Of a stretch of DNA of 64,000 bases, positions 14,140-23,726 are shown piece by piece; positions within the stretch are counted from its first letter, which is position 1, and each line of letters opens with the position of its first letter. Position numbers and translations under genes: made by a program. The notes below the pieces were generated by a model. It had not been told where the DNA came from, did not search any database, and worked only from the letters and a program-made list of their open reading frames with translations. Source of the stretch: Nonomuraea rubra (GTDB taxonomy: Bacteria > Actinomycetota > Actinomycetes > Streptosporangiales > Streptosporangiaceae); the NCBI RefSeq assembly GCF_014207985.1, contig NZ_JACHMI010000001.1:9779001-9843000 (forward strand). Direction: 5' to 3'.

Positions 14140-15324
14140 ATGAGCCTGGGACCACCAATGAGCAGGGAAGGCGCGGAGCACGCGCTTCGTGCCCGCGCGG
14201 ACGAACGCGATCGCATCTCCGGTGACCTGCTCGACCTGGAATCGCACACCACCTACCAGCTGATCAAGGGCGCGTCCTTACGCGGGGCGACCGAGCGCCG
14301 CTGGGCCGCGGCCCAGGAGGCGCTGACCGCGCTGTGGTCGCTGAACGACGCCTACCGTGCGGTGCTGCGCGAGGCGGAGGAGGTCAGGGCCGCCCGCGCC
14401 CGCCTGGGCGCCGAACAGCTCGCCCGGCTCACCGAGCTGCTGGGCGGCGCGTCCGTGGTGGTGCGCGCCGCGGCCAAGCCCGTCGAGCAGCGCTCGCTGC
14501 TCCCGCAGGCCGACGAACGGCTGACCCTGGACGAGGCCGTGACCCGGATGGACACCGCCTTCCGCGAGGTCACGGGCGCGCTCAACGACGTCGACGCCGT
14601 GTGGGGCTCCGTACTGCCCCGCCTCGACGACACCGAGGCCGACCTGCGCAGGATCAGGGAACTGGAGCGCGAGCTGGGCGAGGCCGCCGGCCTGGCCGGC
14701 CAGGAGGCCGAGCTGCGGCGGATCCGCGCCGCGGTGGTCGAGGACCCGCTGGGCCCGCCCGTCGAGCAGGACCTCGACCGGCTGGCCCGGCTGCTGGCCG
14801 GCGCCCGCGCGGAGCTGGAGCTGGCGCTCGTGGTCAAGGACGAGTACGCCAGGCGCCGCGAGAACCTGGTGGCCGAGCTCGACCGGGTGCGGGCGGCCGA
14901 GAGCGAGGCCAGGCTGGCGCACGGCGCCGTCGTCGTGAAGATCGCCCTGCCGCCGCAGGCGCAGCCGCGCAGCAGGGTCGAGGGCCTGGCCGGCGCGCTG
15001 GACGCGCTCGACGTCGCCGCCGACGCCTGGGTGCAGCGCGCCAAGCGGCTGGCGGCCCTGGAGGAGAACGCCCGCAAGGCCGCCGAGCAGGCGCTGGCCA
15101 CGGCCAAGGCCCTGTACGGGCTGGTCGGCCGGCGCGACGAGCTGCGCGGCAGGCTCGGCGCCTGCCAGGTGATGGCGGTGCGCAAGGGGCTGGCCGAGGA
15201 CCCGGCCGCCATGGAGCTGTACGAGCGGGCGCGCACGTTGTTGTGGAGCGCGCCCTGCGACCTGACGAGGGCGGCCACGGCCGTCGAGAACTACCAGCGC
15301 GCGATCTCCGGAGGTAAGCGATGA
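14140..15324 (+). CDS. Coiled-coil protein, first gene of the PknG operon
   Basis: This 394-residue, mostly helical protein has long heptad-like stretches (residues about 40-110 and 170-330; for example RRIRELERELGEAAGLAG and LARLLAGARAELELALVVKD). No signal peptide, membrane helix or enzyme motif. ATG 14140 follows GGGGAG at four bases. Its stop overlaps the kinase start (ATGA, 15321-15324), so the two proteins are probably made in fixed ratio. A scaffold or kinase partner is the most reasonable guess; I know of no characterised homologue. Confidence 0.75.
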   Translation: MSLGPPMSREGAEHALRARADERDRISGDLLDLESHTTYQLIKGASLRGATERRWAAAQEALTALWSLNDAYRAVLREAEEVRAARARLGAEQLARLTELLGGASVVVRAAAKPVEQRSLLPQADERLTLDEAVTRMDTAFREVTGALNDVDAVWGSVLPRLDDTEADLRRIRELERELGEAAGLAGQEAELRRIRAAVVEDPLGPPVEQDLDRLARLLAGARAELELALVVKDEYARRRENLVAELDRVRAAESEARLAHGAVVVKIALPPQAQPRSRVEGLAGALDALDVAADAWVQRAKRLAALEENARKAAEQALATAKALYGLVGRRDELRGRLGACQVMAVRKGLAEDPAAMELYERARTLLWSAPCDLTRAATAVENYQRAISGGKR

Positions 15325-17468
15325 CCCGCTGCGCGCAGCCAGGCTGCACGGGGACGATCGAGGACGGCTACTGCGACCTCTGCGGCCACGCGGCGGTTCC
15401 ACCACCCGTCCCCGCCGCGGTGCCTTCGGCACCGTCGTCGGGGGCGTTCTCCGGCCCCGTGCCGACCCAGCCGGTGGGCAGCAGACCGGTGAGCGGCCCG
15501 GTCAGCAGCGGCAGGTCGCGGGCCGGCGTGCTGGCCACCGTCGCCGACCTGCCCTCGGTCCCCTACCGCGACCCGGCCACCGCCGTCATGGCCAATCCCG
15601 AGGTGCCCGAGGACAAGCGGTACTGCGCCAACCCGGCGTGCGCCAAGCCGGTGGGACGCTCCCGTGACGGGCGGCCGGGGCTGACGGACGGGTTCTGCCC
15701 GCACTGCCGCACGCAGTTCTCCTTCACCCCCAAGCTGGACAAGGGCGACCTGGTCGCCGGCCAGTACCGCGTGCTGGGCTGCCTGGCGCACGGCGGGCTC
15801 GGCTGGATCTACCTGGCCTCCGACGAGAACCTCGACGGCCGCTGGGTGGTGCTCAAGGGCCTGCTCAACACCATGGACGCCGAGGCGATCGCGGCGGCGG
15901 AGGCCGAGCGCAAGTTCCTCACCACGCTCGACCACCCGAACATCGTCAAGATCCACAACTTCCAGCGCTGGGCCGGCCACGGCTACATCGTCATGGAGTA
16001 CGTCGGCGGCCAGTCGCTGCACGAGCTGCGCCGCAAGGGCCCGCTGCCGCTGCGCGAGGCCCTCATGTACGGCAGGGAGATCCTGCACGCCTTCGCCTAC
16101 ATGCACGAGAACCAGACGGTCTACTGCGACCTCAAGCCCGCGAACGTGATCCGGGTCGGCAAGCGGCTCAAGGTCATCGACATGGGCGCGGTGCAGCCGT
16201 TCGGCTCGCCGGTGGGCTCGTCGTGGGGCACTGCCGGCTACCACGCCCCCGAGCTGGACACGATGCCGTCGTCGGTGACCACCGACCTCTACACCGTGGC
16301 CAGGACGCTGGCGGTGCTGGCGATCCCCGGCTGGAGCCCGGCCAAGGGCGGCGTGGCCGGGCCGCTGCCGGCGGACTGCGGGCACCCGTCGTTCACCCGG
16401 CTGCTGCACAGGGCGACCGCGGTGAACCCGGCCGACCGGTTCCAGAGCGCCGAGGAGATGGAGGAGCAGCTCGTCGGCGTGCTGCGGGAGGTCTGCGCGC
16501 AGGAGGACGGGGTGCCGTACCCGGCGCTCTCGACGTTGTTCGGGCCGGAGCGCAGGGCGGTCGGGACGGCGCTGGCGGAGTCGGACGAGGAGGTGTTCGG
16601 GCCGCTCGACCCGGCGGCGGTGGCGCGGGCGCTGCCGGTGCCGCTGGTGGACCCGGCCGACCCCGCGGCGGCCTCGCTGGCCGGCCTGATCGGGCGCGAC
16701 GGCCGGGAGCTGATCGACCAGCTCGCCGCGATGCCCCAGACGCCCGAGACCAGGCTCATGCGGGTCAGGCTGCTGGCCGAGTCGGGCGCGGCCGAGACGC
16801 CCGCCGCGCTGAACGAGCTGGACCGCGAGCTGCCCGGCGACTGGCGGGTCACCTGGTACCGCGGGGTGCTGGGCCTGGCGACCGGGCAGGCGGGCCAGGC
16901 GGTCGCGCTGTTCGACGCGTGCCTGTCGGCGCTGCCCGGCGAGGCGGCGCCCAAGCTGGCGCTGGCGTTCGCGCTGGAGTGCGCGGGCAAGCCGGCGGCC
17001 TCCTGGTACGAGCTGGTCTGGCGCACCGACAGGACCTACGTCAGCGCGGCGTTCGGGCTGGCCAGGTCGGGGCGGATGGGCGTGCTGGACGAGGTGCCCG
17101 CCACGTCCGTCTACCGGGTGCCGGCGCAGGTGGCGCTGGCCGCGTCGGTGGTGCGGCGGCCCGATCTGAGCGCGGTGAAGCCGGCCGACCTGGTGGGCGC
17201 GGTCGAACGGGTGTCGAACCAGGCCGATCTCGACCCGCGCCGCCGCGACCTGCTCGTGGCCGAGGTGCTGGGCGGGGCGCTGGCCTGGCTGGAGAACAAC
17301 CCGCCGCCCAAGGACGTGCGGCTGGCCGACGCGCCGTTCACCGAACCGGGGCTGCGCAGGCGGCTGGAGTCCCTCTTCCGCAGGCTGGCGCAGGCGGCGG
17401 ACTCCCGCAGCGAACGCCACGCCCTGATCGACCAGGCCAACGCCGTGCGCCCGAGGACGTGGCTGTGA
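15321..17468 (+). CDS. pknG: PknG-type serine/threonine protein kinase
   Basis: This 715-residue soluble kinase has PknG architecture. An extra N-terminal ribbon (C4, C9, C18, C21) comes first, then a Pro/Ser-rich linker, a rubredoxin-like metal site (C102, C107, C126, C129), and a kinase domain (about 149-400). The catalytic lysine is K179 in VVLKGL, the catalytic loop is VYCDLKPANVIR (D270, N275), and IDMGA (D287) takes the place of DFG. A C-terminal TPR-like region (about 430-700) follows. In mycobacteria and corynebacteria PknG phosphorylates an FHA protein (GarA/OdhI) to control 2-oxoglutarate metabolism. ATG 15321 follows GGAGG. The start overlaps the upstream stop, and the phosphatase GTG overlaps its own stop. 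Confidence 0.95.
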   Translation: MTRCAQPGCTGTIEDGYCDLCGHAAVPPPVPAAVPSAPSSGAFSGPVPTQPVGSRPVSGPVSSGRSRAGVLATVADLPSVPYRDPATAVMANPEVPEDKRYCANPACAKPVGRSRDGRPGLTDGFCPHCRTQFSFTPKLDKGDLVAGQYRVLGCLAHGGLGWIYLASDENLDGRWVVLKGLLNTMDAEAIAAAEAERKFLTTLDHPNIVKIHNFQRWAGHGYIVMEYVGGQSLHELRRKGPLPLREALMYGREILHAFAYMHENQTVYCDLKPANVIRVGKRLKVIDMGAVQPFGSPVGSSWGTAGYHAPELDTMPSSVTTDLYTVARTLAVLAIPGWSPAKGGVAGPLPADCGHPSFTRLLHRATAVNPADRFQSAEEMEEQLVGVLREVCAQEDGVPYPALSTLFGPERRAVGTALAESDEEVFGPLDPAAVARALPVPLVDPADPAAASLAGLIGRDGRELIDQLAAMPQTPETRLMRVRLLAESGAAETPAALNELDRELPGDWRVTWYRGVLGLATGQAGQAVALFDACLSALPGEAAPKLALAFALECAGKPAASWYELVWRTDRTYVSAAFGLARSGRMGVLDEVPATSVYRVPAQVALAASVVRRPDLSAVKPADLVGAVERVSNQADLDPRRRDLLVAEVLGGALAWLENNPPPKDVRLADAPFTEPGLRRRLESLFRRLAQAADSRSERHALIDQANAVRPRTWL

Positions 17469-17536
17469 CCGGCGACGAGACCACGGCCGGGCAAGCGGCC
17501 GTGACCGGCGACGAGACCACGGCCGGGCAAGGGGCC
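17465..17536 (+). repeat. Tandem 36-bp direct repeat at the phosphatase start
   Basis: Two copies (17465-17500 and 17501-17536) differ at one base in 36. Both begin with an in-frame GTG and encode VTGDETTAGQ plus AA or GA. The repeat therefore duplicates a possible start codon and a Thr-Thr dipeptide after acidic residues. Confidence 0.97.
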
Positions 17537-18403
17537 GGGCGCGAGGCTGCGACGGAGGGCGGGAGCGTGACCGGGAGCGCTGGGGTGTGCCCGGTGTGCG
17601 AGGCGCCGGTGCTGGCGGGCGACGCCTACTGCGAGGCGTGCGGCCACGCCCTGGGCGCGCCGGCCTGCGCGTCCTGCGGCGCGGCGGCCGTGGACGCGGA
17701 GGGGTACTGCGAGCGGTGCGGCGCCCGCCAGCCCACCGGCAGGGACCACGCCGAGATCGTGCTCGGCGGCGGGGCCGCGGCGCTGACCGACAGGGGGCTG
17801 CGGCGCAGCCGCAACGAGGACGCGGTGGCGCTGCTGGAGGCGGGCGGCACGATCGTGACCGTGGTCTGCGACGGCGTGGGCAGCTCGCCCAGGGCCGACG
17901 AGGCCTCGGCGGCGGCGATCGAGACCGCCTCGGCGGCGCTGGCCAGGGGCCTGTCGCACGAGGAGGCGTTCGAGCTGGCCGGCCGCGCCGTGACCAAGCT
18001 GGCGACCTCCCTGGACGACGCCCCCGCCTGCACCTACATCGCCGCGGTGGTGACGCGGGACGGCGGCGTCACGCTCGGCTGGGCCGGCGACACGCGGGCG
18101 TACCTGCTGCCCGCCGGCACGATGCTGACCGAGGACGACGCCGTGGAGACCGGCGAGATCACCGCGTGGCTCGGCGCCGACGCCGAGGACGCCGGCCCGC
18201 ACGTCCGCACGCTCCCCCCGGGAACGCCCGGCCTGCTCCTGATCTGCAGCGACGGCCTGTGGCGCTACCTGGACGGCTACGACTACCCCACGGCGGGGAC
18301 CCCGCTGGAGCTGGCCCGCGAGATGCTGCGCCACGCGCTGGCCTCCGGCGGCCAGGACAACGTGACGATCGCCTTGATCCCCCTAGGAGAAGCGCATGGG
18401 TGA
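17465..18403 (+). CDS. PP2C-family serine/threonine phosphatase with double zinc ribbon
   Basis: GTG 17465 overlaps the kinase stop (GTGA). The 312-residue product has a repeated N-terminal stretch, two zinc ribbons (C42/C45/C56/C59 and C68/C71/C82/C85) and a PP2C domain from about 105: TDRGLRRSRNEDAVAL, VVCDGVGSSPRADEAS, LGWAGDTRAYLL, LLICSDGLWRYL and GGQDNVTIALI carry the metal-binding Asp set. It should reverse phosphorylation by the adjacent kinase. In-frame GTG codons at 17501 and 17567 are alternative starts, and the last has a GGGCGGGAG-like site. The gene overlaps the vWA gene by eight bases. Confidence 0.92.
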   Translation: MTGDETTAGQAAVTGDETTAGQGAGREAATEGGSVTGSAGVCPVCEAPVLAGDAYCEACGHALGAPACASCGAAAVDAEGYCERCGARQPTGRDHAEIVLGGGAAALTDRGLRRSRNEDAVALLEAGGTIVTVVCDGVGSSPRADEASAAAIETASAALARGLSHEEAFELAGRAVTKLATSLDDAPACTYIAAVVTRDGGVTLGWAGDTRAYLLPAGTMLTEDDAVETGEITAWLGADAEDAGPHVRTLPPGTPGLLLICSDGLWRYLDGYDYPTAGTPLELAREMLRHALASGGQDNVTIALIPLGEAHG

Positions 18404-19682
18404 CCAGCCCGCTTTCACGCTGAACATCGACCAGAACAAGTACCTCCCCCTTGACGGCCGTGAGGTGCACGCCATCCTCACCATCGGCTCGACCGGGGCG
18501 GCGACCGCCGAGGCCGTGCCCGCCGAGGCGGCCGAGGTGATCATCATCGACACGTCGGGCTCGATGAGCGGCAGCAAGATCCGCGAGGCCCGGCAGGCGG
18601 CGGCCACGGCCGTGCGGACGCTGCGCGACGGCGTGCACTTCGCGGTGGTGGCGGGCACGGAGCGCGCCAAGGTCGTCTACCCGGGCGGCCACGCGAACCT
18701 GGTCAGGGCCAGCCCGGCGACCAGGGCCGAGGCCGAGCGGGCGATCGGACGGCTGAGCGCGCACGGCGGCACCGCGATCGGCGAGTGGCTCAAGCTGGCC
18801 GGTCACCTGCTGACCGCGCACCCCTCGGCGATCAGGCACGCGATCCTCATGACCGACGGGCAGAACAACGAGCGCCCCGAGGTGTTCGCGTCCGTGCTGG
18901 CCGGATGGAGCGGCAAGTTCGTCTGCGACAGCCTGGGTGTCGGCGACGACTGGGCGCCTGCCGAGCTGCGCAAGGTGGCCGAGGCGATGCTCGGGACGTT
19001 TGACTTCGTCCGCGATCAGGGGGATCTGCCGGAGTTCTTCCGCCGGCTCACGCAGACCTCGATGAGCAAGACCGTGGCCGAGCTGTCGCTGCGGGTGTGG
19101 GTGCCGCAGACGGCGCAGCTCAAGTTCGTCAAGCAGGTCTCGCCCACGCTGCTCGACCTGACCGGCAAGCGCACCGACGTCAACCCGCTGACCGGCGACT
19201 ACCCGACCGGTTCCTGGGGCACGGAGGAGCGCGAGTACCACATCTGCGTCGAGGTGCCGCCCGGCCAGATCGGGCAGGAGATCAGGGCCGGCTGGGTCAA
19301 GCTGGTCCGCCCCGACACGCAGGACGTCCTGGCCACCGGCAACGTGCTGGCCCAGTGGACCGACGACCTGGCGCAGTCCACCCGCATCAACAGGAAGGTC
19401 GCCCACTACACGGGGCAGGCCGAGCTGCACGAGCTGATCCAGGACGGGCTCAGCCTGCGCGCCATGGGCGACGTCGAGGCCGCCACCGCCCGCCTGGCCA
19501 AGGCCCGGCAGCTCGCCGAGGAGTCGGGCCGGGAGGACACGGCCAGGCTGCTGGAGAAGGTGGTGGAGGTGGATCCGGCCACGGGCACGGCACGGCTGCG
19601 CAGGAACGTGGACAAGGCCGACGAGATCGAGCTGGACACCGGCTCCGTGCGGACGAGCCGGCTGCGTAAGGAAGGAAACTGA
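18396..19682 (+). CDS. von Willebrand factor A domain protein of the PknG operon
   Basis: This 428-residue cytoplasmic protein has an intact MIDAS: DTSGSMSGSK (D52, S54, S56), GGTAIG for the Thr, and LMTDGQNN for the Asp. A beta-rich middle region follows, and then a helical C-terminus (about 325-400) that ends in a basic tail with several Ser/Thr. vWA proteins beside a kinase and a PP2C phosphatase recall the TerY-P triad described from comparative genomics. ATG 18396 follows AGGAGA. Its stop and the FHA start overlap (TGATG). Confidence 0.92.
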   Translation: MGDQPAFTLNIDQNKYLPLDGREVHAILTIGSTGAATAEAVPAEAAEVIIIDTSGSMSGSKIREARQAAATAVRTLRDGVHFAVVAGTERAKVVYPGGHANLVRASPATRAEAERAIGRLSAHGGTAIGEWLKLAGHLLTAHPSAIRHAILMTDGQNNERPEVFASVLAGWSGKFVCDSLGVGDDWAPAELRKVAEAMLGTFDFVRDQGDLPEFFRRLTQTSMSKTVAELSLRVWVPQTAQLKFVKQVSPTLLDLTGKRTDVNPLTGDYPTGSWGTEEREYHICVEVPPGQIGQEIRAGWVKLVRPDTQDVLATGNVLAQWTDDLAQSTRINRKVAHYTGQAELHELIQDGLSLRAMGDVEAATARLAKARQLAEESGREDTARLLEKVVEVDPATGTARLRRNVDKADEIELDTGSVRTSRLRKEGN

Positions 19683-20338
19683 TGGCGACCTGCCCGCAGG
19701 GGCACCAATCGGGCGCCGACGACTACTGCGACGTCTGCGGCACCCAGCTCGCCCCGGCCTCGCAGCCGGACCCGCAGCCGGCCTCCCAGCCCGCCTCGCG
19801 ACCCGAGCCGGCCGAGCCCGCCGAGGCGTGCCCGGTCTGCCAGACGCCGCGCGCCGGGCAGTTCTGCGAGGTGTGCGGCCACGACTACAGCGGCACCGGC
19901 GTCTCCGTCCAGGCTCCCGTGACGGGGGCGGGCGCGCGGTGGGAGGCCGTGACCGCCGCCGACCGCACCTACTACGAGAAGGTGGTCGCCGAGGGCGGTC
20001 CCGACGCCGCCGCGATGGCGTTCCCGCCGTACTGCCCCGAGCGGTCTTTCGCGCTGTACGGCGAGCAGGTACGCATCGGGCGGCGCAGCCGGGCCAGGAA
20101 CCTGCAGCCGGAGATCGACCTGAGCGGCCCGCCGGAGGACCCGGGCGTCTCGCACCTGCACGCCGTGCTGCTGGCCCAGCCTGACGGCACGTGGATGCTG
20201 GTGGACCCGGGCTCGTCGAACGGCACGCAGGTCAACGGCAAGCCGCTCAAGGTGAACGTGCCGGTCAGGGTCGGCGCGGGCGACCGGATCCACCTGGGCG
20301 CGTGGACGGTCATCACGATCAGGGAGGGCACGCCGTGA
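19682..20338 (+). CDS. FHA-domain protein with two zinc ribbons
   Basis: This 218-residue protein carries a first ribbon (C4, H8, C16, C19), a Pro-rich linker, a second ribbon (C50, C53, C62, C65) and a C-terminal FHA domain (about 118-215). The FHA domain has the phosphothreonine-binding features GRRSRAR, GVSHLHAVL and DPGSSNGTQVNG. FHA domains read phosphothreonine, and in the mycobacterial pathway the FHA protein GarA is the PknG substrate. Here an FHA gene sits in the kinase operon itself, though it lacks the GarA N-terminal ETTS tail. It overlaps both neighbours by one to four bases. Confidence 0.93.
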   Translation: MATCPQGHQSGADDYCDVCGTQLAPASQPDPQPASQPASRPEPAEPAEACPVCQTPRAGQFCEVCGHDYSGTGVSVQAPVTGAGARWEAVTAADRTYYEKVVAEGGPDAAAMAFPPYCPERSFALYGEQVRIGRRSRARNLQPEIDLSGPPEDPGVSHLHAVLLAQPDGTWMLVDPGSSNGTQVNGKPLKVNVPVRVGAGDRIHLGAWTVITIREGTP

Positions 20339-21711
20339 CCGTGGTGCCGACCGCGCCCGCTCCTCCCGTGCCGGTCTCCCCGGTCCCGGCGCGGCGCAGC
20401 GTGCCCGGCAGGATCCGGATCATCTCCGGCGTCACGGTCGCGTCGCTGGCCCTGCTGTTCGCCGCGCTCGCGGTCGGCACCTCCAGCGCCCGCGAGGGGC
20501 TGCGGGTCATCGGCCGCGACGCGGGCCCGCAGGTGGTCGCCACCGCCGGGCTCTACCTGGCGCTGAGCGACATGGACGCGCAGGTCGCCAACGTGCTCGT
20601 GATGGGCGACGCCTACGCCCAGCAGCGCCAGGCGGCGCTCGACAGGTACGACAGGCAACGGGCCGAGGCCAACCGGACGCTGCTGCAGGCGTTCGAGCTG
20701 TCGGGCGACAACGCGGCCGAGCGGAACACCGTGCAGTCGGTGCTCGACGGCCTCGGCCGCTACGAGCGGCTGGCCGGGCGGGCGCTGCTGCTGAACGAGC
20801 AGTCCAGGCACGCGCCGGGCCCGCCGCCCGGGGAGGTGGTGCGGACCTATCGCGAGGCCACCGACCTGATGCGCATGGTGCTGCTGCCGCAGGCCTACAA
20901 CCTGACGCTGGAGAGCGGCACGATCGTGCGCTCCACCTACGACTCGCAGACGGTCGTGGCGCCCCTGGTGCGCCTCGCGGTCGTGCTGGCCGGGCTGGTG
21001 GCACTGGGCTGCCTGCTGTGGCTGCAGCTGTTCCTGGCGCGGCGCTTCCGCCGGGTGTTCGGGCCCGCGCTGCTGGCCGCGACGGTGACGACCCTCGTGG
21101 CGATGCTCTTCGGGGCGAACGCGCTCGGCCAGGACGCGGAGGACCTGCGCACGGCCAAGTCGGCCGGGTTCGACTCGGTGCTGACGCTGGCCAGGGCGCG
21201 GGCGATCAGCAACAGCATGCAGGGCGACCAGAGCCGCTACCTGCTGGACAAGGAGCGGGCCGACACCTACGAGCACACGTACCTGGACCGGTCGCTGGCG
21301 GTCATGTACACGGAGGCCGGCAACCTGAGCACCTACCACACGGCGGTGGCCCGGAACTCGGCCGGTTACCTCGGCCTGCTGGGGCCCGAGCTCGTCGGCA
21401 GGCAGGGCGAGGAGGTGGCGGGCGCGTACCGGGCGTTCCAGGCGGCCGACAGGAGCTTCCGCGACCTCGTCGCGAGCGGCAGGACCAACGAGGCGGTCGC
21501 CGAGCGGCTGGGGCCGGTCACGGCGGCGTTCGACGCCTACGACCGGGCGCTGACGCGGCTGGCGGGCACGCACCAGCAGGTGTTCGAGCGCTCGATCAGG
21601 AGCGGCGAGGGCGCGCTGGACAACCTGTGGCGGCTGCTGCCGTTCGCCATCGGCGCGATCGCCGTGCTGATGGTCGCCGGCGTGTGGCCACGACTGAGGG
21701 AGTACCGATGA
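20335..21711 (+). CDS. glnX: GlnX-like four-helix membrane signal transducer
   Basis: GTG 20335 overlaps the FHA stop. The 458-residue protein has membrane segments at about 27-49, 200-225, 232-254 and 428-448. The long intervening regions are helical and lie outside the membrane (about 50-199 and 255-427; for example LSDMDAQVANVLVMGDAYAQ). This matches the mycobacterial GlnX layout, in which the protein passes the ligand state of the lipoprotein GlnH to PknG. The cytoplasmic Pro-rich N-terminus (APAPPVPVSPVPARRS) could contact the kinase. The gene overlaps glnH by four bases. Confidence 0.85.
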   Translation: MTVVPTAPAPPVPVSPVPARRSVPGRIRIISGVTVASLALLFAALAVGTSSAREGLRVIGRDAGPQVVATAGLYLALSDMDAQVANVLVMGDAYAQQRQAALDRYDRQRAEANRTLLQAFELSGDNAAERNTVQSVLDGLGRYERLAGRALLLNEQSRHAPGPPPGEVVRTYREATDLMRMVLLPQAYNLTLESGTIVRSTYDSQTVVAPLVRLAVVLAGLVALGCLLWLQLFLARRFRRVFGPALLAATVTTLVAMLFGANALGQDAEDLRTAKSAGFDSVLTLARARAISNSMQGDQSRYLLDKERADTYEHTYLDRSLAVMYTEAGNLSTYHTAVARNSAGYLGLLGPELVGRQGEEVAGAYRAFQAADRSFRDLVASGRTNEAVAERLGPVTAAFDAYDRALTRLAGTHQQVFERSIRSGEGALDNLWRLLPFAIGAIAVLMVAGVWPRLREYR

Positions 21712-22514
21712 AGCGGCTGCTGGCGATCGTGCTGGTGCTGGCCTCCGTCGCGGTCTCGGGGTGCGGGATCGGCGGCCAGGAGTCGATCCTGGACCAGGAC
21801 GAGCTGGTCATCGGGGTGCGGTCCGACCTGCCGTCGGTCGGGTTCAGGAAGGGCGACGGCACGTTCGAGGGCTTCGACGTCGACGTGGCCCGCTACCTGG
21901 CGGGCAAGCTGGGCAAGGACGTCACCTTCCTCGGCGTGCTGGCCGCCGACCGGGAGAAGGTGCTCATGGACGGGCGGGCCGACCTGGTGGTGGCCACGTT
22001 CACGATCGACCAGGACCGCAAGCGCAGGGTGCTGTTCGCGGGGCCGTACCACATCTCGTACCAGGACATCCTGATCCGGCCCGAGGAGAAGATCGCGAAC
22101 GTGCGCGATCTCGAGGGGCGCAGGATCTGCGAGGTGCAGGGGTCGAACGCGGCCCAGCGGGTGGTGACGGAGCGCGGGGTGAAGGCGGAGGTCGTGCCGT
22201 TCCCCGACTACAACCGGTGCCTGGCGGCGCTGAAGGGCGGGCAGGTGGACGCGGTCACCACGAACGACGTGATCCTGGCGGGGCTGGCCGCGCGGGACGG
22301 GTCGGGGCTGCGGCTGGCCAACGCGCTGTTCAACGAGCAGCGTACGGGGGTCGGCCTGGCCAGGGGCGACGTGCCCGGCTGCGAGGCGGTGAACCGGGCC
22401 ATCACGCAGATGTACCAGGACGGGACGGCGCAGAAGCTGCTGCGCAAGTGGTTCGGGGAGCCGTGGCTGCAGCGCGCCATCGTCGCGGTGCCGCAGTTCG
22501 AAGGCTGCTCCTGA
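21708..22514 (+). CDS. glnH: GlnH-like solute-binding lipoprotein
   Basis: This 268-residue lipoprotein has a lipobox VSGC (C19) and a type II periplasmic-binding fold for polar amino acids: ELVIGVRSDLPSVGFRKGD, FEGFDVDVARYLAGKLGKDV, ATFTIDQDRKRRVLFAGPYH and GSNAAQRVVTERG. No ABC permease or ATPase follows, so it serves sensing rather than uptake, as for GlnH in the GlnX-PknG pathway (ligand there aspartate/glutamate). ATG 21708 overlaps the glnX stop and follows GAGGGAG. The gene ends just before a strong terminator. Confidence 0.9.
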   Translation: MKRLLAIVLVLASVAVSGCGIGGQESILDQDELVIGVRSDLPSVGFRKGDGTFEGFDVDVARYLAGKLGKDVTFLGVLAADREKVLMDGRADLVVATFTIDQDRKRRVLFAGPYHISYQDILIRPEEKIANVRDLEGRRICEVQGSNAAQRVVTERGVKAEVVPFPDYNRCLAALKGGQVDAVTTNDVILAGLAARDGSGLRLANALFNEQRTGVGLARGDVPGCEAVNRAITQMYQDGTAQKLLRKWFGEPWLQRAIVAVPQFEGCS

Positions 22515-22538: not shown

Positions 22539-22569
22539 AAGGGGACGGCCCCGGCGGGGCCGTCCCCTT
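22539..22569. terminator. Bidirectional terminator between glnH and the sigma factor gene
   Basis: A perfect 14-base stem (22539-22552 with 22556-22569) and a three-base loop lie between convergent genes. The A-rich and T-rich ends of the stem help both directions. Confidence 0.88.
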
Positions 22570-22577
22570 CTGCACGG

Positions 22578-23726
22578 TCAGTCCAGGTAGTCCCGCAACA
22601 TCTGCGCGCGCGTCGGGTGGCGGAGCTTGGCCAGGGTCTTCGACTCGATCTGGCGAATGCGCTCGCGCGTGACGCCGAACTCCCTGCCCACCTCCTCCAG
22701 CGTGCGCGGATGCCCGTCGGCCAGCCCGAAGCGGAGCTGGATGATGCGCTGCTCGCGGTCGGACAGCGTGGCGAGGATGTCGTCGAGCTGGTCCTGCAGC
22801 ATGATGAAGGCGGCGGCCTCCATGGGCACTACAGCGTCGGCGTCCTCGATGAAGTCTCCGAGGTCGGAGTCCTCCTCACCGATCGGCGACTGCAGCGACA
22901 CGGGCTCCTGGGCGATGCGCTGGATCTCCACCACGCGATCGACAGGGAGGTCCATCTCCTTGGCGATCTCCTCGGGGATCGGCTCGCGGCCGAGGTCCTG
23001 GTGGAGCTGGCGCTGGACCCTGACGAGCTTGTTGATGGTCTCCACCATGTGGACCGGGATGCGGATCGTCCGCGCCTGGTCGGCGATGGCCCGGGTGATC
23101 GCCTGCCTGATCCACCAGGTGGCGTAGGTGGAGAACTTGTAGCCCTTCGTGTAGTCGAACTTCTCTACCGCCCGGATGAGCCCGAGGTTGCCCTCCTGGA
23201 TCAGGTCCAGGAAGAGCATGCCGCGGCCCACGTACCGCTTGGCGATCGACACCACGAGCCTGAGGTTGGCTTCGATGAGCCGCTGTTTGGCCCGGGTGCC
23301 CTGCCAGACGAGCTCCCTGAACTCCGGGAAGGCCAGACGCGAGACCCCGTTGGCCAGCTTGTCCTCGGCGAACAGGCCGGCTTCGATCGACTTGGCGAGC
23401 TCCACCTCCTCCTCAGCGGTCAGCAGTGGCACACGGCCGATCTCCCGCAGATAAATACGGACCAGATCGCTGGTCGGCGCCCGCTTGCCTACGTCTTCCT
23501 CATCGGCGCGGGTGGTCTCCTCGTCGCCCTGGGGCTCGAGGACCTCCACGCCGTTCTCGGCGAGCATGCGTACAACGCGTTCCAGCGCGTCGGACGGCAA
23601 CTCGGATCGGTCAAGCGCGGCTGCGACGTCATCGACGGTTACGCTCCCGCGCTCCCTTCCCTTCGCGACGAGGTCCGCCACCTGATCTACGGATGGCGGT
23701 CCACTTGGCAGCACCGATGCACCCAC
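22578..23726 (-). CDS. sigA: Principal RNA polymerase sigma factor (SigA/HrdB type)
   Basis: This 382-residue group 1 sigma factor has region 1.2 ([20 protein letters not shown]), region 2 core binding and -10 recognition ([38 protein letters not shown]), region 3 and region 4.2 ([20 protein letters not shown]). The N-terminal 85 residues are an acidic region 1.1. The start is GTG 23726, since an in-frame stop lies ten codons upstream and no better start exists; a GTG at codon 5 is possible. An adjoining dnaG gene is a usual neighbour of rpoD-type genes. Confidence 0.95.

Follow-up and report, generated by a model that had tools for sequence, protein, structure and literature searches.

What would the kinase PknG work with in a bacterium whose pknG gene belongs to the same overlapping run as genes for a PP2C phosphatase, a vWA protein and an FHA protein? 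The question is raised by seven genes at positions 14140–22514 of a 64,000-nucleotide stretch of the Nonomuraea rubra genome (contig NZ_JACHMI010000001.1, positions 9,779,001 to 9,843,000; hereafter the window), in the order CC (coiled-coil-like), PknG, PP2C, vWA, FHA, GlnX, GlnH. PknG has been much studied, but the papers seen on its pathway treat mycobacteria and corynebacteria, with a three-gene operon. If relatives carry a fuller machine, then PknG has a dedicated phosphatase, a reader and a probable substrate that have escaped notice, including in Streptomyces and other antibiotic producers. With moderate confidence, I read the operon as a nutrient-responsive phospho-relay, in which a vWA/FHA switch would operate beside GarA.

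Seven overlapping genes around pknG

All seven reading frames, on the forward strand, are uninterrupted along their full length, and all six junctions overlap (in order ATGA, GTGA, 8 bases, TGATG, GTGA and ATGA), in agreement with the overlap or contact at every junction claimed in an initial annotation of the window. The protein identities proposed there are matched by Pfam or NCBIfam families for PknG, PP2C, vWA, FHA, GlnX and GlnH. That annotation does not mention the zinc ribbon of the phosphatase, the ribbon-like Cys clusters of FHA and PknG, the conserved Thr tail of the vWA protein or, elsewhere in this genome, a divergent second PknG operon and an orphan GlnX-GlnH pair.

The kinase (15321–17468) consists of rubredoxin, Ser/Thr kinase and TPR domains (PF16919, PF00069 and PF16918, all over cut-off), and matches the solved PknG 2pzi with an E-value of 1.4e-139. 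In alignments of chosen relatives, used for all residue comparisons in this section, its kinase K, D, N and D columns show no variation among 19 PknGs; I take the two aspartates to be those of the HRD-type and DFG-type motifs. Its N-terminal Cys pairs are ribbon-like in pattern only, with no Pfam ribbon match. The phosphatase (17465–18403) combines a PP2C_2 domain (PF13672) with an N-terminal double zinc ribbon (PF13240; DZR, PF12773), and its NED, DG, GD, DG and DN columns are invariant among 13 relatives. The vWA protein (18396–19682) has the VWA_3 and VWA_3_C domains (PF13768 and PF18571) in an ArnB-like build. It matches the solved relative 4fx5 over its full length (E 7.3e-129), and the residues of its metal ion-dependent adhesion site (MIDAS), D52, S54, S56, T126 and D154, are invariant in 16 aligned sequences. 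The FHA protein (19682–20338; PF00498) begins with ribbon-like Cys clusters, recognized by pattern and without a Pfam ribbon match; its phosphothreonine-binding columns G, R, S, N and G, together with C62 and C65, are invariant in 11.

The GlnX family membrane transducer (20335–21711), with the C-terminal end WPRLREYR, passes the NCBIfam model NF058618 (281 bits, cut-off 250) and is far under the cut-off of the narrower equivalog NF041460 (47 bits, cut-off 780). The GlnH-type solute-binding lipoprotein (21708–22514) belongs to SBP_bac_3 (PF00497), shows a lipobox VSGC by eye and matches the solved GlnH 6h1u (E 2.1e-23). The first gene (14140–15324) is an open frame for a coiled-coil-like protein of 394 amino acids, with a C-terminal module RRDELRG..APCDL..Y that is conserved in relatives; it has no match in Pfam, NCBIfam or PADLOC, and no family name was obtained for it. 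The residues required for activity are thus kept in PknG, PP2C, vWA and FHA. Ribbons or Cys clusters were counted roughly in 50/99 FHA proteins, 85/107 PP2Cs and 34/132 PknGs, with a background of 245/2228; these counts, and the frame lengths in the fetched loci, are approximate, as the gene caller had been trained on the window and overlooks starts and some loci.

A PknG_TPR search of the class covered 296 genomes and found the domain in 110 (108 over cut-off). From these matches, 60 neighbourhoods were chosen by hand rather than at random: 20 fetched from the window-family matches listed above 200 bits, with the two loci of the window's own genome kept apart, and 40 from other families. A second, named set holds the best 80 of 582 relatives; its query was led by one divergent PknG, and it under-samples Mycobacteriales. 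Eight of the 60 loci and 20 of the 80 were dropped as truncated, and four type-2 loci were set apart. Partners were counted from stop-to-stop frames, and neighbouring genes may swap in the printed order.

Among the 48 complete type-1 loci of the class sample, 31 hold PP2C, vWA, FHA, GlnX and GlnH beside PknG, with CC also detected in 28. Of the 17 others, eight come from a single family (f4), probably Mycobacteriaceae judging from its three-gene operon, its GarA sequence and its ackA-pta neighbours. Seven of these eight have the three genes only and the eighth has PknG alone; without this family, all five partners are found in 31 of 40 loci. In the named set, 50 of the 60 complete loci have all five, and 57 have PP2C, vWA and FHA, the exceptions being L160 (PknG alone), L169 (FHA and GlnH only) and L185 (Herbihabitans, three genes). 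This set spans Nocardioides, Kribbella, Cellulomonas, Promicromonospora, Kineosporia, Terrabacter, Streptomyces, Kitasatospora, Actinoplanes and Actinomadura, among others. The neighbourhood conservation across actinomycetes that had been suggested as a check is borne out by these 57 loci, and the claim that both modules form one overlapped unit held, with conservation reaching far past close relatives.

The order CC-PknG-PP2C-vWA-FHA-GlnX-GlnH is that of the window's family, of Actinomadura and of one contig of a Candidatus Dormibacteraeota metagenome-assembled genome (MAG; L176, where CC was not detected), while GlnX-GlnH-CC-PknG-PP2C-vWA-FHA is the order elsewhere. The PknG of the Dormibacteraeota contig falls with that of family f15, so transfer or a binning error is possible. 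At the thresholds used, no same-strand GlnX-GlnH pair accompanies the core in the Acidimicrobiales MAGs L166 and L167 and the Propionibacteriaceae MAGs L137 and L180; L137 has a 35-bit GlnX-like gene, and L167 has GlnX on the opposite strand.

Chance adjacency was rejected on the conserved linkage. It is very improbable that the seven genes are simply inherited side by side and serve no single pathway: this would fit the loss of vWA, or of the entire core, in some species (L055–L057), but not the overlaps at all junctions, the same set in two gene orders, or the conservation over many families. No account of the seven-gene unit was found in open-licence papers. The only one found to pair PknG with vWA plus FHA or PP2C is PMC1262709, whose passages treat other kinases, and those found to pair ArnB with PknG concern, by title and abstract, unrelated subjects. 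As far as seen, the parts are of known kinds, and the combination, its breadth and the vWA tail described below are new against this literature.

The vWA tail, its proposed reader and GarA

The vWA protein ends in a tail (19620–19655, forward strand; DEIELDTGSVRT) with T415, S417 and T420, whose conservation and similarity to the GarA site make it the proposed site of PknG phosphorylation and of FHA docking. In order to survey it, I took 100 vWAs scoring at least 300 bits outside SB1-linked loci, and located the tail by the anchor [DA][EST][MI].L within 60 residues of the C-terminus, the threonines not being used. The consensus DEMxL[DE]TxSTKTxRV is present in 96 of the 100. After the anchor, these tails read [DE] (95/96), T (90/96), any residue, S (96/96), T (89/96), K or R (92/96) and T (96/96), and some Streptomyces-type tails read DEMTLETRST. 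On inspection by eye, two of the four without an anchor (L184 and L048) still have this tail, which L089 and L059 lack. A stricter motif, sought over the same stretch, turned up in 95 of the 100 type-1 vWAs, in none of four SB1-linked type-2 vWAs, and not in L059; in each of these motif-less cases (the type-2 vWAs and L059) the FHA gene is absent from the locus. The motif is also missing at the aligned tail place in the vWAs of L014, a divergent PknG operon of the window's genome, and of its relatives L072 and L080.

The GarA core DEVTVETTSV, part of a peptide printed in PMC8546545, was compared with 2226 proteins. All 19 that score at least 27 are vWAs, two unrelated proteins reach 26, the best site lies within the last 40 residues in 96 of 104 vWAs, and only 3 of 2000 shuffled queries do as well on the tails. 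According to PMC5448819, the first Thr of the GarA ETTS is known as a target of PknG alone, and the second as a target of several kinases. The vWA tail keeps the first of these, in the same 90 of 96 tails, and has mostly A, R or G at the second place, never Thr. By its sequence, the tail is thus one resembling the GarA site used by PknG.

In the relay that I favour, a small solute would be bound outside by GlnH, and the resulting state carried over the membrane by GlnX. PknG would be switched through its TPR domain, an arm that is partly a model in mycobacteria and corynebacteria too, and would phosphorylate threonines of the vWA C-terminal tail. The FHA protein, loosely held through its Cys-cluster domain, may then clamp the phosphorylated tail with its FHA domain, until PP2C takes the phosphate off as a reset. 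The vWA/FHA pair would be the switch, as are ArnB/ArnA in Sulfolobus, beside a separate GarA. I infer all the protein contacts and phosphorylation steps in this organism from what is observed: the genes and how they are conserved, a tail that is itself conserved, catalytic residues that are intact, and the nested three-gene form of the operon.

GarA/OdhI is the protein on which PknG acts in mycobacteria and corynebacteria. The initial annotation had the FHA protein act in place of, or beside, GarA, and proposed looking for a separate GarA gene. One was found at L016 5183–5692 (reverse strand), away from the operon, and GarA orthologues are present in all 34 genomes searched. Because GarA is a separate gene, the FHA protein would work beside it and not in its place. 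A replacement of GarA was rejected on this distribution and because the operon FHA protein shows nothing like the TTS motif of GarA.

The GarA sequences of 30 of these 34 genomes were taken for reading, and 29 proved readable (L211 did not). Four (L190, L212, L215 and L216) were set aside as coming from core-less or three-gene genomes. Of the 25 readable GarAs of module-bearing genomes, 13 have Thr at the PknG place and the other 12 have S, V, Q or H, and the second Thr is kept in all 25. These sequences bear on an alternative in which PknG acts mainly on GarA, PP2C resets GarA or PknG, and vWA, FHA and CC form a scaffold placing the kinase at GlnX. I consider this unlikely, though far from negligible. 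It gains from the presence of GarA in every genome, from the 13 that keep the Thr, from GarA phosphorylation at ETTS in Saccharopolyspora (PMC12321487), and from the zinc ribbons or Cys clusters on several operon proteins, which suggest assembly; however, the PknG place has changed in nearly half of these GarAs with the second Thr always kept, and the vWA tail is left unexplained.

The GarA/OdhI phospho-switch also consists of a [DE]T-x-S motif plus an FHA domain, but here motif and FHA are on two proteins, as if GarA were split in two, and the operon FHA protein is the one without the motif. The GarAs at L016 and L187–L214 often carry an N-terminal CxxC...CxxC, like the operon FHA protein, a cluster that Pfam identifies as Zn_Ribbon_1 in the window's genome and that was seen by eye in the others. 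By eye, the L016 gene adjoins gcvP-like and MerR-like genes.

Likeness to ArnA-ArnB and to TerY-P

ArnA and ArnB act in Sulfolobus with the kinase ArnC and the phosphatase PP2A. As described in PMC6509490, 4fx5 and vWA2, an ArnB paralogue, have the same three-domain build, and ArnA binds the ArnB C-terminus, where the phospho-sites are located, in a contact that is weakened on nutrient loss. In PMC12852372, unphosphorylated ArnB is held by the ArnA zinc finger, the FHA domain is argued to take over after ArnC phosphorylation, and ArnC is a kinase with a TPR-like stretch. The operon has the same elements: a 4fx5-fold vWA with a Thr-bearing C-terminus, a Cys-cluster/FHA partner, a Hanks kinase with a TPR or TPR-like region, and a putative nutrient input. 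Homology to 4fx5 gives the vWA the ArnB-type beta-sandwich and helix bundle, its invariant columns show an intact MIDAS, and the FHA protein has the ArnA-type layout of an N-terminal CxxC...CxxC followed by FHA, the Cys cluster being seen by pattern in the half of relatives counted above from rough starts. The FHA profile matches 26 solved chains, including ArnA 5a8i (7e-8) and 8s05_C (7.9e-8), and only the ArnA chains are aligned from the Cys cluster onward. In contrast to the archaeal system, the module is bacterial, its kinase, phosphatase and membrane sensor are in the same operon, the phosphatase is PP2C and not PP2A, and the tail is short, where ArnB has many sites in a helix bundle. Under such a scheme, the structural-genomics protein 4fx5 would gain a pathway and a predicted partner.

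Several points weigh against the proposed switch. The shuffle count for the GarA core is not an independent p-value, because the likeness was noticed before testing and the tails are one family. Six of the 96 tails have Ala in place of the first Thr, and the solved 4fx5 has Val there. The window GlnH has N for D250, a ligand contact treated below. FHA persists without intact vWA in several loci (L051, L055 and L056, with a truncated vWA in L062), so the pair is not obligatory, and the whole core is lost in L057. The plant FHA 1uht (5.4e-10) and GarA (6.2e-8) precede ArnA among the FHA-profile matches. The vWA profile matches 12 chains, in which 4cn8 and 9c4f precede ArnB 8s05_A (1e-9, vWA domain only). 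VWA_3_C was not found in S. acidocaldarius, and with this result and the coverage of 8s05_A no sequence homology was seen between the vWA C-terminal domain and ArnB. In PMC12852372, ArnB-like proteins elsewhere, the Catenulispora vWA among those named, are mostly judged to lie outside multi-phosphorylation processes; the operon context argues otherwise for this vWA family. Finally, ArnB alanine pairs left motility and, where tested, binding unaltered (PMC6509490). Since the sequence parallel is the weaker one, with profiles that are not specific and PF18571 not seen in S. acidocaldarius, I would speak of a likeness of design to ArnA-ArnB rather than of membership. In the remnant or truncated vWA genes at L051 10874–11332 and L062 7996–8766, the match is confined to the region that follows the vWA domain.

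The TerY-P triad consists of a vWA protein, a PP2C and a kinase with a C-terminal zinc ribbon, and in TerY-P-like modules the kinase may instead be fused at that end to an OB fold (PMC11090510). The likeness to TerY-P drawn in the initial annotation is sound for the list of parts, with vWA and PP2C genes beside a kinase and TelA nearby in many lineages, but not for the kinase, which is a PknG with an N-terminal rubredoxin and a C-terminal PknG_TPR; FHA, GlnX and GlnH are further additions. Plain TerY-P membership was rejected on this C-terminus, a TPR and not a zinc ribbon. A related alternative is a TerY-P-like stress module, which would serve metal or envelope stress through TelA and an AAA+ ATPase, with GlnH-GlnX as one input. 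TelA, a protein of ~170 amino acids and an AAA+ ATPase do occur together in 51 of 141 loci, and the TerY-P composition given in PMC11090510 is in keeping with it. However, among fetched loci that extend 7.5 kb upstream, those of Streptomyces, Kitasatospora, Actinoplanes/Paractinoplanes and Actinomadura have no TelA, L119 being the exception (its PknG falls with Kribbella); the sole TelA of the window's genome is 5.4 Mb from the operon; and the kinase is again of the wrong build. I find this alternative improbable.

The kinase-PP2C-vWA set is also known in biological-conflict systems (PMC7159879), and a Trypsin_2 and a Trypco1 protein are encoded in L014, which would make the module kin to vWA/PP2C/kinase triads and trypsin-co-occurring systems. 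A role in defence has very little to commend it all the same: PADLOC gave kinase-domain matches for PknG, one weak match for PP2C and none for CC, vWA, FHA, GlnX or GlnH, and the gene set is steady across many families. A defence system was rejected on the PADLOC result.

Input, operon history and surroundings

In the mycobacterial and corynebacterial arm, Asp/Glu are sensed by GlnH, relayed by GlnX and received by the PknG TPR (PMC6069109, PMC8546545, PMC9769921), with GlnH-GlnX and GlnX-PknG contacts still undemonstrated according to PMC9769921. GlnH contacts the side chain of the ligand with R147, T162 and W232, and its amine and carboxyl groups with S164, R169 and D250 (PMC6069109). The window GlnH retains R147, T162 and R169, and has T at the S164 position, the commonest state (88/117 relatives); W232 is replaced by Y and D250 by N, the latter found in 5 of 117 relatives. 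Because the amino-group contact is altered by D250 to N, the ligand is uncertain, and may not be a normal amino acid. The description "amino-acid-responsive" given earlier is therefore plausible for most family members and uncertain for this GlnH.

The same genome holds a second GlnX-GlnH pair without an adjoining kinase gene (L015 7953–10087; G000:C1:4846000-4863000). Its GlnX is 50% identical to the window GlnX, with the same WPRLREYR end, and this pair may feed the operon PknG too. A further lipoprotein-like gene adjoins it, in convergent orientation.

The GlnH-GlnX-PknG operon of Mycobacterium and Corynebacterium (PMC6069109) shares with that of the window a solute-binding protein, GlnX and a rubredoxin-TPR PknG, with GarA elsewhere, but CC, PP2C, vWA and FHA are extra here. 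I examined which form is older with a PknG tree of 55 sequences, made by a quick method with SH-like approximate likelihood ratio (SH-aLRT) values only, and type-2 paralogues as the outgroup. The loci with three genes number nine (seven from f4, one from f41 and one from Pseudonocardiaceae); they are nested in seven-gene lineages, on a branch of their own with the value 91 inside an enclosing branch with 98*. Two changes on the tree account for the label "three", the second for divergent paralogues of family f15. The outgroup, too, has vWA (35% identical) and the CC module. As the three-gene loci nest and the outgroup has these two parts, reduction is the simpler reading, although the outgroup sits on long branches and loss cannot be proved from the tree alone. 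Seven genes are the common state, and the textbook three-gene operon looks reduced: the PP2C-vWA-FHA-CC part is gone from the sampled Mycobacteriaceae-like and Pseudonocardiaceae loci. The description of the modules as "fused" is hence right in that both are in one unit, with the direction reversed.

More tentatively, and with a little less than even confidence, I suggest that the ancestral output of PknG was the ArnB/ArnA-like pair, a GarA split in two, with its dedicated PP2C, and that the mycobacterial pathway is a remnant in which GarA took over. If this is true, one switch design serves nutrient sensing in Archaea and actinomycetes. Slow reversal of mycobacterial GarA phosphorylation is discussed in PMC5448819; the three-gene loci are without the operon PP2C, which bears on why this phosphorylation may reverse slowly.

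Some loci differ in their surroundings. A three-gene pknG operon of family f4 (L099 3242–6347) lies near pta-ackA. Genomes of family f15, Frankia-like by guess (L089, L094, L096), encode a further PknG that lies on a long branch and comes with a GlnH-GlnX pair running the other way, and L089 additionally has a same-strand GlnX-GlnH pair. In the TelA set, the ~170-residue protein has no Pfam match and the ATPase carries AAA_lid_6; examples are L107 3664–6645, L127 3376–6629 and L081 16679–18489, among others, and in L107 and L127 the set runs straight into GlnX, giving a ten-gene run.

The second, divergent PknG operon of the window's genome (L014 6060–14298; G000:C1:4234000-4252000) has relatives in L068, L072 and L080. 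It encodes a Trypsin_2 protein with the CC C-terminal module, PknG2, a vWA protein with a C-terminal Cys cluster, a GlnX-like membrane protein, an SBP_bac_1 lipoprotein and the Trypco1 protein. The C-terminal part of the CC protein is common to the C-terminus of its trypsin-like protein (E 3e-10, 143 columns).

The window's genome measures 12.9 Mb. A consensus scan of the window gave no sigma-70 promoter and no T-tailed terminator, a result of little weight at 71% GC. A perfect 14-bp inverted repeat with a 3-base loop, missed by the scan and read by eye (22539–22569, no T-run after it), is a possible terminator. It sits between GlnH and a convergent sigma-70-family gene directly after the operon (22578–23567, reverse strand), whose region 2 motif was recognized by eye.

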